Shown in pieces: positions 42,430-52,300 of a DNA stretch of 64,000 bases. Positions within the stretch are counted from its first letter, which is position 1. Each line of letters starts with the position of its first letter. The translations under genes and the position numbers were made by a program. Source of the stretch: Tridacna crocea (lineage: Eukaryota > Mollusca > Bivalvia > Cardiida > Cardiidae). Below the pieces are notes generated by a model. It was not told the origin of the DNA, made no database searches, and saw nothing but the letters and a program-made list of their open reading frames with translations. The stretch covers positions 55,439,159 to 55,503,158 of the forward strand of contig OX031059.1 of the NCBI GenBank assembly GCA_943736015.1, given 5' to 3'.

Positions 42430-42580
42430 TAATTTTGGAAGCTGTTGCAGGCGACAAATTAAATGAACTAAATTTTTCTTTTTAATGGTAAAAATCTATT
42501 GCGGTTAAAGGAGAAAATGATGGTTACCAGCATTTCTCCTTTAACCACAATGTAATGGTGTCAAAAACCTCCTTCCTCAG
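42430..42580 (-). mobile_element. TH, degenerate but with matched stem variants
   Basis: The hairpin reads TTGCGGTTAAAGGAGAAAAT on one arm and TCTCCTTTAACCACAA on the other, so the unusual GGTTAAAGG is matched by CCTTTAACC. Confidence 0.8.
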
Positions 42581-42639
42581 CAATTCGCGCAGTCTGACCA
42601 AGGTTGACATTTTTCTCAGTTCCCAGAAGCTCCCTGTTA

Positions 42640-43003
42640 AGGTAAGACCTGTGTAATGGAAAACGGCTATTTCCACTAAAATATCATCCTGCAAAATTAG
42701 CTATTATTAAAAATGAATATTATTGAAATACTTTCACCTTTTCATTTTTTCCATTTTTTCCTTCTTTGAATTATCATATATAAATCTAAAACCACTATAT
42801 TCTCAAATCAAAGCGAGGTAATAATTACCTCCCTTTTCAGAAAACTAACAAAAGTATCAAAAGATAATTTCAAGATATACATAAACGGAATTTCTGATCC
42901 GTTAGAAATATGCAAAAATATTATTTCTGAATAAATCCTTATTTATCCTCATTTATCGACCAATTAGAATTTTCACCGGAAGTGCATTACACAGGTCTTA
43001 CCT
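42640..43003 (-). mobile_element. Family J MITE, reversed
   Basis: Ends AGGTAAGACCTGTGTAATGG and GGTCTTACCT with TA outside each. The interior is the complement of the other two copies (TCCGTTTATGTCTATC in the minus sense). Confidence 0.88.
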
Positions 43004-43546
43004 TAACGTGATGGACTGATGGGTCATATTTAGTAAACATGTTGAGAATAAGAGTCAGAATGTTTACTAAGATTTGACAGTCCTCTAGATACATATCATA
43101 CTTGAAAGTCAAACTATATCTACCTACTACCTTACACTGTTTGTAAAAAGTTCCTGTAGTTAAATTTACCCTGAGCAACATCAGGAGTCTTGAACACACA
43201 TCTTTATGTCTAGAGTATAATTATCATTGAGCGCTTTGGCGGATCGCCATCCGATGACCTATGGAAAATTAGTGGAAGTAGACTGTATTCCAAACATGTA
43301 TACCATTTTGGAAAATGTATGTAGTAAACGCGGCTAATCTAGCCACGGATTAATCGTTCTCCCATACAAATTTTAAACTCTTTTTTTAAAAGGTAATAGT
43401 TATTGTACAAATGCAAATGTTTGTCCAAGGTAGATTAAAACCACACGGAGTAAATTCTGACCTCCGACTTTTAAAATCTTGATTGGTAGAGATTGTTTAA
43501 ATGTATGTCATTAATGCGATGTAGTTGGTTTGAGACTGTCCCTTAC
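43004..43546. other. Intergenic DNA without recognised features
   Basis: No known repeat family; frames are short. Confidence 0.4.
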
Positions 43547-43735
43547 CAATTGATTAAAAGTTTTGCCACATCTCCGTCGTTCTCACAACCGTTCTTCTCT
43601 ATGGTTTCTTTCCATTTATCAATGTGGTCTCGTAAATTCACCATTTGGTTCCAAGTTTTGCGAGCTTGTGCAGCTTTGCAAAACTTTTTTGGCCGACTCG
43701 GTAGTTTACTTCCATTCGGAACACCTAGGTCAATT
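43547..43735 (-). CDS. Possible isolated exon, unknown protein
   Basis: On the minus strand an open frame reads IDLGVPNGSKLPSRPKKFC, then KAAQARKTWNQMVNLRDHID and KWKETIEKNGCENDGDVAKL, and ends LINW at a GTAAGG donor. An AG precedes the first residue. The composition (basic, helical, no low complexity) looks more like protein than the frames around it. No family was recognised and no partner exon was found. It could be a captured exon, a transposon remnant or chance. Confidence 0.25.
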
Positions 43736-43842
43736 CTACGAATCAAGTTTATTTGGGAGCCGAAATAGTAGACACCAATGCTGTACGTCGGGTAAAATAA
43801 ACAATGATTGGTCAAATATCGATTTTCCACGGATCCGTATAT

Positions 43843-48593: not shown

Positions 48594-48610
48594 TTTAATT
48601 TCACATTGAT

Positions 48611-48880
48611 GAATAAAATAATTATACCCTGCTAATAGTTAAGCGCCAACGGTAGCGATTTCAGAGTTCTTAATTGCCGGATTTTTTTTTTCGTTTGGAC
48701 AGCGTAGATCCAAGATCAGACTGTTCGCAGCAGTCTGATCAGTCAGTCTACAAACAGTCTGATCTTGGATCTACGCTGTCCAAACGGAAAAAAAAAAAAA
48801 AAAAAAAATCCGGCAATTAAGACCTCTGAAATCGCTACCGTTTATCAGACTGTTCGCAGCCGGGCTTAGCAGCATCAGGG
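48611..48880. repeat. Long inverted repeat in the TDH 5' region
   Basis: Arms at about 48651-48742 and 48750-48841 pair over roughly 85 bases. They include TCCGGCAATTAAGA and GATCCAAGATCAGACTGTT with their complements, and an A21 run at 48788-48808 opposite a T run. A transcript through it would fold into a long hairpin. It ends about 40 bases before the TH copy that precedes the TDH start. Confidence 0.85.
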
Positions 48881-49110
48881 TTAACCCAATACCAAACGAC
48901 ATTATGATAGACTTGTCTAAATTGAAAGCATTTGCAGACGACAAAATGAAAGTGTCTGAAAATTTGAGATTTGTTTTGTGAAGGGTAGAAAACATTGTGG
49001 GAAAAGGAGAAAATGCTGGTTACCAGCATTTTCTCCTTTTCTCACCATGTTTTCTAAAGGCTTCTTTCTCAGGGGCGTCAAAAGTAGGGATTGTGTGGTA
49101 ATGGTTTAAA
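48881..49110 (-). mobile_element. TH-A, complete, directly upstream of TDH
   Basis: TTAACCCAATACCAAACGAC to GGTAATGGTTTAA. The element ends 58 bases before the TDH ATG, so it lies in the promoter or 5' UTR. Confidence 0.94.
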
Positions 49111-49168
49111 CATGTAGTGTTTTTCTTGTAATTGAAGGTTTGAAGAACTGAAAAGTAGTTCTAGTCGC

Positions 49169-49331
49169 ATGGCGTTGAGAAACCACGTGACTCCACTTTA
49201 CCGCCATGTTTGTCGTTCTAAGGGACTGCTACTTCCGCAGCTATCTATTTTCCACAGAGACTTCACAATCGGAGCTGACGACTTTTTACACCGGGACAAA
49301 AACCCAGACAAGCCAACAGTACTAATAACAG
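49169..49331 (+). CDS. TDH: TDH exon 1 (start codon, targeting peptide, first half of the NAD motif)
   Basis: Starts [19 protein letters not shown] and ends KPTVLITG with one base of the split glycine codon; donor GTAAGA at 49332. The base at +4 is G and the base at -3 is C, so the start context is moderate. An in-frame TGA at 49133 excludes an upstream extension. Confidence 0.94.
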
Positions 49332-52300
49332 GTAAGAAATTAAGTGTCGGACCATGTCAATTCATTATCTCCCGCTAGATGGCATTCTATAAATACTCAT
49401 CTATCTAATTTGGGCGTCCTGGGTACAGAACCGAACCACTTTCCTACGCGACAACCGTTACTTTGAATTTCGAACTAAAATAAAAGTTTACTCAATAAAA
49501 CGCTACCTCGTGTAATTCACTCAGCTATGATCAGCAGTTTAGAGAAATCTGGAGCTAAAGCAGGTCTCATTTCTCCTCAAACGTAATGATAAAAGCTATT
49601 TTCTACATTGCTACTTTGTAGAGCGTAATAATTACAGTCAGCCCGCTTTCGGGGCTAGTGATACGTCATATAAGACAGTCGAATCTTCGAAGAACATGAC
49701 ATGCGCAGACAACGCACGTCAACTCCCTATTAAGCAGGGAAAGTAACCCAACAGGGAAAAGTAACTGAGATAGAGGAACGAACAGAAGAGTTTCGAAGTA
49801 TCTTTCCAGACAATAGGGATTAACTCATTACCAAACAATCCCTACTTTTGACGACCCTGAGAAAGAAGCCTAAAGAAAATATTGTGGAAAAAGGAGAAAA
49901 TGCTGGTAATCAGCATTTTCTCCTTTTTCCACAATGTTTTCTACCCTATCAAGGAAAAAACGCACCAATTGAGCCTCATTGAAATTGTCGTCTGCAAATG
50001 CTTTCAATTTGGACAAGGCTAAATTGTTTTCGTCTGTTAAAAGGTTTATCTAGGGATTAATGTCCTTCTAACTTTCAAAAAATGATGAAAAGTAACTGAG
50101 ACAGGGGAAAGAACAGAGGGGTTACAAAGTCCCTTTCTAGACAGTCACAGTAATCGGGTTAATCTCCTAAGCTTTAACCCTTTCCCAAACGACAAACTTT
50201 TGGACTAGACCAAAGTGAAAGCATTTGCAGACGACAATTCAACTTTTGCTGAAAAGATGATTTCTGTGTATGATAAGGTAGAAAACATTGTGGGAAAAGG
50301 AGAAAATGCTGGTTACCAGCATTTTCTCCTTTTCCCGCAATGTTTTCAGAAGGCTACTATTCCAGACCCGTAAAAACCAGGGATTGTTTGGGAAAGGGTT
50401 AAAGAATTTCTCAATTTTGCTCACATGGGAAAGTAGCCATCGACTTGCACAGAAAAATGTGTATTGCTCTGGCATTGAAGGTACCTGAACACATGGATAG
50501 GCTCACTAGCTACCTTGACATGACTGAAATCCAAAGCTAAGGGCTTTATATACATACAGACAAATGGATATAACTTTAATATCCCCGAAATGATTTACAG
50601 TCAGACATAAGCATCTTCGCAAGCCAAGGTTACGATCACTACCTGGATCTTACCTTGGCTGATTGAGCCCGATTTCGAGATTCCTGCGATGCGCCCTCTA
50701 TTAGATGCTGGTTATTACCGACCCACCCACCCCACTCTCCTTCACATCATACATGTACTTCTAAAAGCGAATGAAATGTTGTTTTACAAACCGCTTACGA
50801 ATACACATGAAGCGATAAGCAGACATCCACGTGGGTTTCCATGTTTACTTCTATTCGAAAGGTAGTGACCTTATTCTATTTTTATCAAAGATGAAATGCT
50901 ACGAGCGGTTTCATTCGTTGCAGTTAGAGCTGGCTGCATCCAATGAAAAAGCGTATCGGGGGAATGTAAAAATCAAGCTCGATCCGCCAAGGGTAGAGTA
51001 GTGTAGTGAATCGTCAGCCTTGACTTGCGAAGATGGACATAAGTTAAGCATCACCAGAACAAATTCAGTCATTTTTTTTTTTAATGGATAAACTTTTATT
51101 TGGTATATTTTCAAGCTATGCACAGATCCACTAGACAAGTAACAGGCTGCTTTATGAGCCAAATGAAAGGATGGCTACGAGAAAACTTTCCGAAGCCCAG
51201 AAATGGCAAATAGTGGGCATGAGTAATTCTGGTCTAAGCACATTGGCTATCCGTGGTTACTTTTGGTGATGCTTAACCCTTTACTCCATAGATACTCAGT
51301 TCTACGCACTGCTTGTAGGAGTCTTTGGAAAACATTGTGGCAAAAGGTGAAATTGCTCGCGACGAGCAATTTCACCTTTTGTCACAATGTTTTCTATGCT
51401 ATCAAAAGGTGTCATATACATATAAGAAACGGCTTCGTCCTTGCTCTTATTTAGGGTCAGTTAGAGATACCATAGAAATGCCTTATGGGGTAAAGGGGTA
51501 ACTTCTGTCTGACTGTATAAAGCATATGTTGTTATACGTGCCTTTATTTCAGAAGGACCATCTTTTTTTGACTGAGCATTTTCTCTTACAGATATTTTTT
51601 TCTTATTTTAGGAAGTCTGGGACAACTTGGACAGGGTCTTGCAAAAGTAATGAGGTATGATCAATCCTTTTATATGTAATTCCTTACCTCCACCACACGG
51701 ATCCTTGCGTTTTGAAGCAGACTCCTTTTGAAAACATTGTGGTAAAAGGAGACATTTCTAGTGCGAGCAATTTCTCCTTTTACCACAATGTTTTCTCATT
51801 TATTAATGTACTGAACTGTGAATCATAATAATCATCCATAATTTACAGGGATGTTTTTAATGATGTGTGATGTAAGTTTGTTATAAAAGATAACGAGATT
51901 TCTTGCATCATTTATTTTCTGTTTAGTCCTTTTCCAAACAATATTAAGGTTAACCCTGTCCCAAACAATTCCTGGTTTTTACGGGTCTGGAATGGTAGCC
52001 TTTTGAAAACATTGTGGGAAAAGGAGAAAATGCTGGTAACCAGCATTTTCTCCTTTTCCCACAATGTTTTCTACCGTATTATAGACAAAAATCATCTTTT
52101 CAGCAAGAGTTGAATTGTCGCCTGAAAATGCTTTCAATTTGGTCTAGCCCAAAAGTTTTCGTTTGGGAAACGGTCAAAGCCTTTTGTAAACACCTTTAGA
52201 TAGGAAAAATCCTGGTAACCAGCATTTTTTCTTTTTCCCACATTGTTTTCTCGCCTTTCATAGGCTGATTCCATTATTTAACCCACGTGTAATTTATCGT

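Follow-up and report, generated by a model that had tools for sequence, protein, structure and literature searches.

Template-switch mutation at quasi-palindromes is the closest described counterpart of what we report here for a hairpin-bearing transposon family of the bivalve Tridacna crocea. In yeast, inverted repeats between which the template is switched undergo both homogenisation of the arms and inversion of the spacer (PMC8604942), compensatory changes and loop inversions in ribosomal RNA (rRNA) hairpins are ascribed to the same process (PMC8794818), and quasi-palindrome mutations in yeast vary with the direction of replication (PMC3820800). Our window is a stretch of 64,000 nucleotides (assembly GCA_943736015.1, contig OX031059.1, positions 55,439,159 to 55,503,158, forward strand), and the elements in question fit a TTAA-flanked, piggyBac-type non-autonomous miniature inverted-repeat transposable element (MITE) of about 228 bp. 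The family consensus comprises 228 columns with the ends AAAGGGTTAA; columns 107-173 hold a 67-bp palindrome, whose arms of 33 bp each enclose a single unpaired base and which reads GGT-T-ACC at its centre in the direction of the element.

The likeness to quasi-palindrome mutation consists in arms that are made identical, in an inverted loop or spacer and in independent recurrence. Whereas those studies drew on strains, reporters and rRNA phylogenies, the evidence here comes from a single genome, in which nearly identical transposon hairpins number in the tens of thousands. Another relative are REPINs, likewise short non-autonomous mobile elements with a hairpin in which compensatory changes are common; they are bacterial, belong to another class of elements, and their compensatory changes were interpreted as favouring folding capacity (PMC3116915).

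In the clam family, partner bases of stem pair 14 are coupled, paired double changes are in excess, matched variants recur on different flanks and the loop has an inversion-type bias. The mechanism that we propose is already known; unusual is its scale in piggyBac-type MITE hairpins. A search of titles and abstract openings in the open-access literature found no account of transposon hairpins whose arms are homogenised or whose spacers are inverted, nor of so large a natural collection of hairpins in which the process can be seen, its rate counted and a control drawn from the same data.

Matched changes in the two arms

Pair 14 was followed by counting exact variants of a 53-bp hairpin core throughout the genome, with all other bases perfect. 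The G-C form with centre T has 43372 copies, most of them presumably without function. One-arm variants A-C and G-T number 2939 and 2660, and the matched A-T variant is present 497 times where independence predicts 180 (2.8-fold; odds ratio 2.76, 95% interval 2.49-3.06). As a control we combined left base 14 with the non-partner right base 13: T at right 13 has 2297 copies, and together with A at left 14 only 106 against 156 expected, or 0.68-fold (0.56-0.83). The partner effect thus exceeds the control 4.0-fold (3.3-5.0). Mixing of old and young copies cannot produce it, because mixing would raise partner and control alike; differences in copy age were therefore rejected as the cause, also in view of the permutation strata described below. 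At pair 14 the matched excess is complementary and does not extend to the non-partner site counted, as would be expected if an arm served as template for its partner; T..T is an exception to which we return. The T-A variant of the same pair has 56 exact copies against 3 to 6 predicted, about 18-fold over an expectation that was extrapolated from single counts in 41 rows among the matches listed.

The whole stem gives a similar picture. In the first genomic set, assembled before loci L029-L033 joined it, 220 of 284 hairpins were usable and 197 of them were of type A. These contain 740 single changes. Paired doubles number 53, where column frequencies predict 19.6, and unmatched doubles number 40, where 23.6 are predicted. 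For correction by ancestry, 216 near-full-length elements from 336,627 bases were placed on a tree built from flanks only, and changes were inferred for each branch. The terminal branches were tested on the 190 copies with at most 3 hairpin gaps (26 were left out), right arms being shuffled among copies of equal right-arm change number, with six or more pooled. Paired doubles amount to 31 against 16.2 expected, a number reached by 0 of 2000 permutations, and unmatched doubles to 25 against 18.5 (p 0.07). When only copies with at most 5 stem changes are considered, there are 12 paired doubles (2.9 expected) and 2 unmatched ones (3.3 expected). Displacing the partner by 1 to 3 positions lowers the number of coincidences, whatever their kind, from 56 to 19-35 in the full set of 190 copies; among those with at most 5 changes it falls from 14 to 1-7. 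One copy in L032 bears paired changes at two pairs, 13 and 19, which may have been corrected together in one tract.

Fitch counts for sampled T-A (20 of 56), centre-A (20 of 758, see below) and A-T copies (12 of 497) speak for recurrent independent events, with slight clustering remaining. The twenty T-A copies have flanks of several different subfamilies and need 17-18 changes on flank trees, where shuffled labels need 19.5 and the minimum is 16. More than one third of all T-A copies were sampled, and large sibling groups would therefore have shown. Two of them, L035 and L037, have flanks 7% apart and may be related. The twelve A-T copies need 12 changes. Subfamily ancestry, which the original prediction named as the explanation that would undo it, is accordingly rejected as the whole cause of the T-A variant; for A-T, of which 12 copies out of 497 were sampled, its exclusion is less complete.

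Within the window, the four matched stems that had first drawn attention exist as described. The hairpin at 42492-42557 (forward strand) carries adjacent paired changes at pairs 14 and 15, GGTTAAAGG/CCTTTAACC, besides one unmatched double and five singles. At 51730-51795 (forward) lies a B-like hairpin with a damaged loop and a paired T-A at pair 14, GGTAAAAGG/CCTTTTACC. The family A element at 49820-50046 (reverse strand) has its hairpin at 49875-49941 with pair 14 changed from G-C to A-T, GGAAAAAGG/CCTTTTTCC; this is the A-T type counted above. In the family A element at 14067-14294 (forward), the hairpin at 14173-14239 has pair 20 changed from G-C to A-T, AAGAAG/CTTCTT, together with two singles. 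Further paired changes are found in forward-strand family A elements at 33616-33840 (pair 12, G-C to T-A), 46060-46285 (pair 10, G-C to T-A) and 26361-26587 (pair 12, G-C to A-T).

Matching is a minority pattern, a small excess above many uncorrected mismatches. The 65 of 77 window hairpins that aligned well enough contain 177 one-arm changes, 17 paired doubles and 5 unmatched doubles. Three of the 17 are C-G at pair 8, which is also the state of subfamily B, and one (pair 21 at 51730) is a product of the script having filed the B-like hairpin as type C. The mismatches which, by the original argument, independent mutation would leave are in fact mostly what is found (177 of 199 changed pairs).

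Centre base and probable inversion of the loop

The centre base should be free of pairing pressure. Among the 216 copies, oriented by their flanks, terminal changes of centre T led 19 times to A, 5 times to C and 2 times to G. The corresponding numbers are 295, 370 and 186 for T in the flanks (Fisher p 1e-4 against the centre) and 67, 65 and 28 for T sites of the stem (p 0.005). Genome-wide, perfect hairpins preceded by the left-flank tag AAGGGTA have T at the centre in 8699 cases, A in 758 and C in 178. This bias from T to A gives a Fisher odds ratio of 5.3 against flanks (p about 1e-52) and of 4.1 (p 7e-13) when the reference is T in the stem, with 67 changes to A and 65 to C. About 575-616 centre-A copies, near 7% of tagged perfect hairpins, exceed what point mutation supplies. 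Such a surplus is predicted by inversion of the hairpin interior, and an inverted loop or spacer is one of the marks of template-switch mutation. In the window, centre A relative to the flanks is present in family A elements at 34891-35120 and 46283-46510 (both forward) and 11661-11886 (reverse).

Twenty of the 758 centre-A copies were fetched, from matches listed on contigs C1 and C2. They are spread over the tree, and 18 have a plain family-A right flank, which led us to reject a composite element with reversed hairpin as their source. Locus L065 turns into the left flank of another element after about 20 bases and L070 has a second hairpin there; the left flanks of L058 and L068 are foreign or mixed. 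The copies L063 and L069 share identical flanks, so in this pair the flip was inherited. Orienting the enlarged set by short near-flank sequence gives a bias in the same direction (type A, 67 nt: T 130, A 35, C 3, G 1), but we make no use of it, because a low margin can misorient palindrome copies and the result is unreliable.

Template switching as the proposed mechanism, and its rivals

We suggest that template switching between the arms is quite probably the best account of both arm matching and loop bias. It is favoured because arm homogenisation and spacer inversion are known consequences of this process in the yeast and rRNA studies cited above. During synthesis through a copy of the hairpin, the nascent strand would sometimes switch template to the other arm. 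An arm copied from the other arm would lose its mismatch, either by acquiring the new base, which results in a paired change, or by restoration of the old one. A switch that spans the loop would invert the hairpin interior and turn centre T into A. We infer that a polymerase switches template, rather than that mismatch repair or cruciform resolution acts, and that the events take place in resident copies and not during transposition. Arm-to-arm correction, as originally proposed, thus gains from partner coupling at pair 14, from recurrence in different flanks and from loop inversion; it is weak, and most mismatches persist.

Several points weigh against this account. Genome-wide coupling was counted for pair 14 and one non-partner control, flank trees have about 157 columns and 12-20 sampled variants, and the T-A excess leans on the extrapolated expectation. 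Sampling of A-T is thin, and small sibling families could be missed by it. Compared with shuffled labels, the real ones show slight clustering, for T-A (17 against 19.5), for centre-A (17 against 19.4) and for all 42 centre-A tips (36 against 39.4), and the centre-A copies L063 and L069 have identical flanks; some variants were therefore inherited. Further, the non-complementary T..T state of pair 14 is found 8 times against about 1.1 expected within the initial 56.7 Mb of contig C1 (P 2e-5). All 8 copies were fetched and verified, they represent 8 separate changes on the tree, and templated copying does not predict them. Taken over all pairs, unmatched doubles stay close to the number expected. 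The T..T surplus may stem from an unusually mutable first A of the A-run: 16 type-A copies have a changed left base at pair 15, whereas pairs 16, 17 and 18 have 6, 3 and 7 such copies. Finally, centre-A copies are no cleaner than centre-T ones (on average 3.06 arm mismatches, n 18, against 3.17, n 163). Inversion and arm correction are therefore not visibly the same events, a single event combining them is unsupported, and most flips and most corrections probably are different events or tracts. Known systems behave likewise: in yeast, 9 of 10 spacer inversions affected arms that were perfect beforehand (PMC8604942), and rRNA hairpins rarely combine loop inversion with compensation (PMC8794818).

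If only foldable copies were amplified, matched changes would build up in source lineages under selection for pairing and then be inherited. The internal branches of the 216-copy tree look this way, as all 6 doubles are paired, next to 22 single breaks and 1 restoring single; so do the low divergence of the stem (7.3% against 20.3% in flanks) and the compensation of every pair by which subfamilies A, B and C differ. T-A, however, is seldom common to copies with related flanks (17-18 changes in 20 copies) and mostly was therefore not inherited from a source. Nor does selection account for matched changes that are private to scattered copies, or for the leaning of an unpaired base towards A (758 against 178). 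It is disfavoured as the source of private changes and, as an explanation of the whole, unlikely. Very improbable is the idea that chance double hits and subfamily ancestry produced accidental or inherited matches among hundreds of copies. It can point to the preponderance of single over paired changes (740 against 53 in the 197 type-A hairpins), to unmatched doubles 1.7-fold above expectation, as copy-age differences would give, and to the coarseness of the tree, into which three B-type copies with a common pair-32 change, probably one lineage, entered separately. Yet partner coupling of 2.76 beside 0.68 for the non-partner was obtained in the same young set, and the excess withstands the tree-corrected permutation test and drops once the partner is slid by 1 to 3.

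Another conceivable route is extrusion of a cruciform, with mismatch repair between arms and a flip on resolution, or recombination between arms. Matched arms and an inverted loop would follow from it just as well, and flips without cleaner arms suit an inversion by cutting and rejoining. Arms of 33 bp are, on the other hand, short for recombination, and extrusion of such arms is slow in chromatin. We consider this route doubtful, albeit the strongest competitor to template switching. An artefact of assembly or library preparation has in its favour that perfect palindromes are hard templates; the non-partner control has no excess, though, and L063 and L069 both carry the flipped centre on different contigs, which makes an artefact highly improbable.

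Source lineages, genome setting and meaning

Subfamily C differs from A at stem pairs 14, 21, 26 and 31, each compensated, just as had been claimed; subfamily B does so at pairs 8, 26 and 31, likewise compensated. The window contains a C hairpin with all four changes at 61318-61384. The MITE around it, at about 61267-61491, resembles family A in its flanks only close to the hairpin and at the CCCTTTAC tips; its orientation appears to be the reverse of that of A. A B hairpin with its three compensated pairs and one mismatch at pair 9 is located at 62820-62886 (forward). Stem divergence was measured with a search profile that includes the hairpin, so that the 7.3% may be lowered by preference for copies with a good hairpin. 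Together with the wholly compensated differences, the divergence contrast nevertheless indicates that amplifying copies keep the palindrome. The differences between A, B and C are changes of amplifying source lineages and alone no proof of conversion. For these differences, constraint on the hairpin (7.3% against 20.3%) is the better explanation. Separately from events in resident copies, source lineages would thus keep the hairpin nearly unchanged and paired, which would leave A, B and C different only by compensated pairs, and selection for pairing may act there.

One idea about the role of the palindrome is binding by a transposase dimer. Subterminal palindromes of piggyBac and piggyBat are bound by two C-terminal domains (PMC11707139). 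These are likewise TTAA-type elements with palindromes near their ends, but theirs measure about 14-19 bp against 67 bp here. Assignment of the clam MITEs follows from their TTAA targets and CC/CT...GG termini (5'-YY...RR-3'), which are those of the piggyBac superfamily. Kolobok elements also duplicate TTAA, but their termini obey the rule 5'-RR...YY-3' (PMC9587614), and a Kolobok MITE was rejected on this ground. The genome has 118 matches to the piggyBac transposase domain PF13843. Flanks of two matches were read. One is a transposase gene on contig C3 (L096:626 to L097:990), bounded by TTAACCCTTTATATAC...GTATATAAAGGGTTAA; its terminal inverted repeat CCCTTTATATAC has only the terminal CCCTTTA in common with the MITEs, and no hairpin was found within the stretches read. 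For the other, element ends were not found. The hairpin loop core had 0 matches in viral contigs.

The assembly around the window amounts to 1.05 Gb in 31 contigs, and the longest stop-to-stop frame in the window encodes 158 amino acids. The window is crowded with short elements that start with TTAA and CTC/CCCTTTACCAAACGACAAAA and end with GGTAAAGGGTTAA; starts matching TTAACCCTTTACCAAACGACAAAA with at most 3 mismatches number 36, against 0 in shuffled sequence. The profile was seeded with the family A reference element at 2008-2236 (forward), which begins with TTAA and CTCTTTACCAAACGAC, holds the 67-bp hairpin in its right half and ends with GGTAATGGGTTAA. Eighteen stretches of 10 kb contain 140 hairpins (0.78 per kb); if the sampled places are typical, the genome harbours several hundred thousand of them, a figure that also covers old and partial hairpins. 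Family elements often stand head to tail (13358-13605, 16290-16538, 45305-45757, 46059-46514, 54592-54840), apparently with one TTAA between them, as if newcomers enter the TTAA of older copies.

Other repeats are present as well. A 156-bp tandem repeat forms two arrays, 8970-10320 and 17786-19454, which are about 75-80% alike. A different palindrome family, with core arms AGCCTGCGC / GCGCAGGCT and longer near-perfect arms, lies at 30345-30381, 32701-32765, 41958-42010, 46805-46869 and 57147-57213; arm copying could be tested on it as well. Long palindromes of a third family, with arms of 39-42 bp, are found at 41394-41472 and 42310-42394. The segments 29438-29789 and 31459-31810 form an inverted pair of 352 nt, 91% alike and 1.7 kb apart, with relatives at 49362-49630 and 61952-62315.

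Taken together, it is in our judgement an evenly balanced question whether covariation in resident transposon copies arises by mutation alone, without selection, at a directly measurable rate: about 5-6% of stem-pair transition changes matched beyond chance and about 7% of otherwise perfect hairpins flipped. If this is true, then the hairpin is its own back-up copy and the loop a clock of template-switch events. Compensatory substitutions are what is normally cited to show that RNA or DNA structure is under selection. With its 43372 exact 53-bp cores, the present family would be a natural control for such evidence, displaying how much covariation comes from mutation alone, and its spectrum. 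It would also allow rates of arm copying and loop inversion to be obtained per pair, per position and per direction of replication in the germline of a eukaryote, with no need to engineer a reporter.

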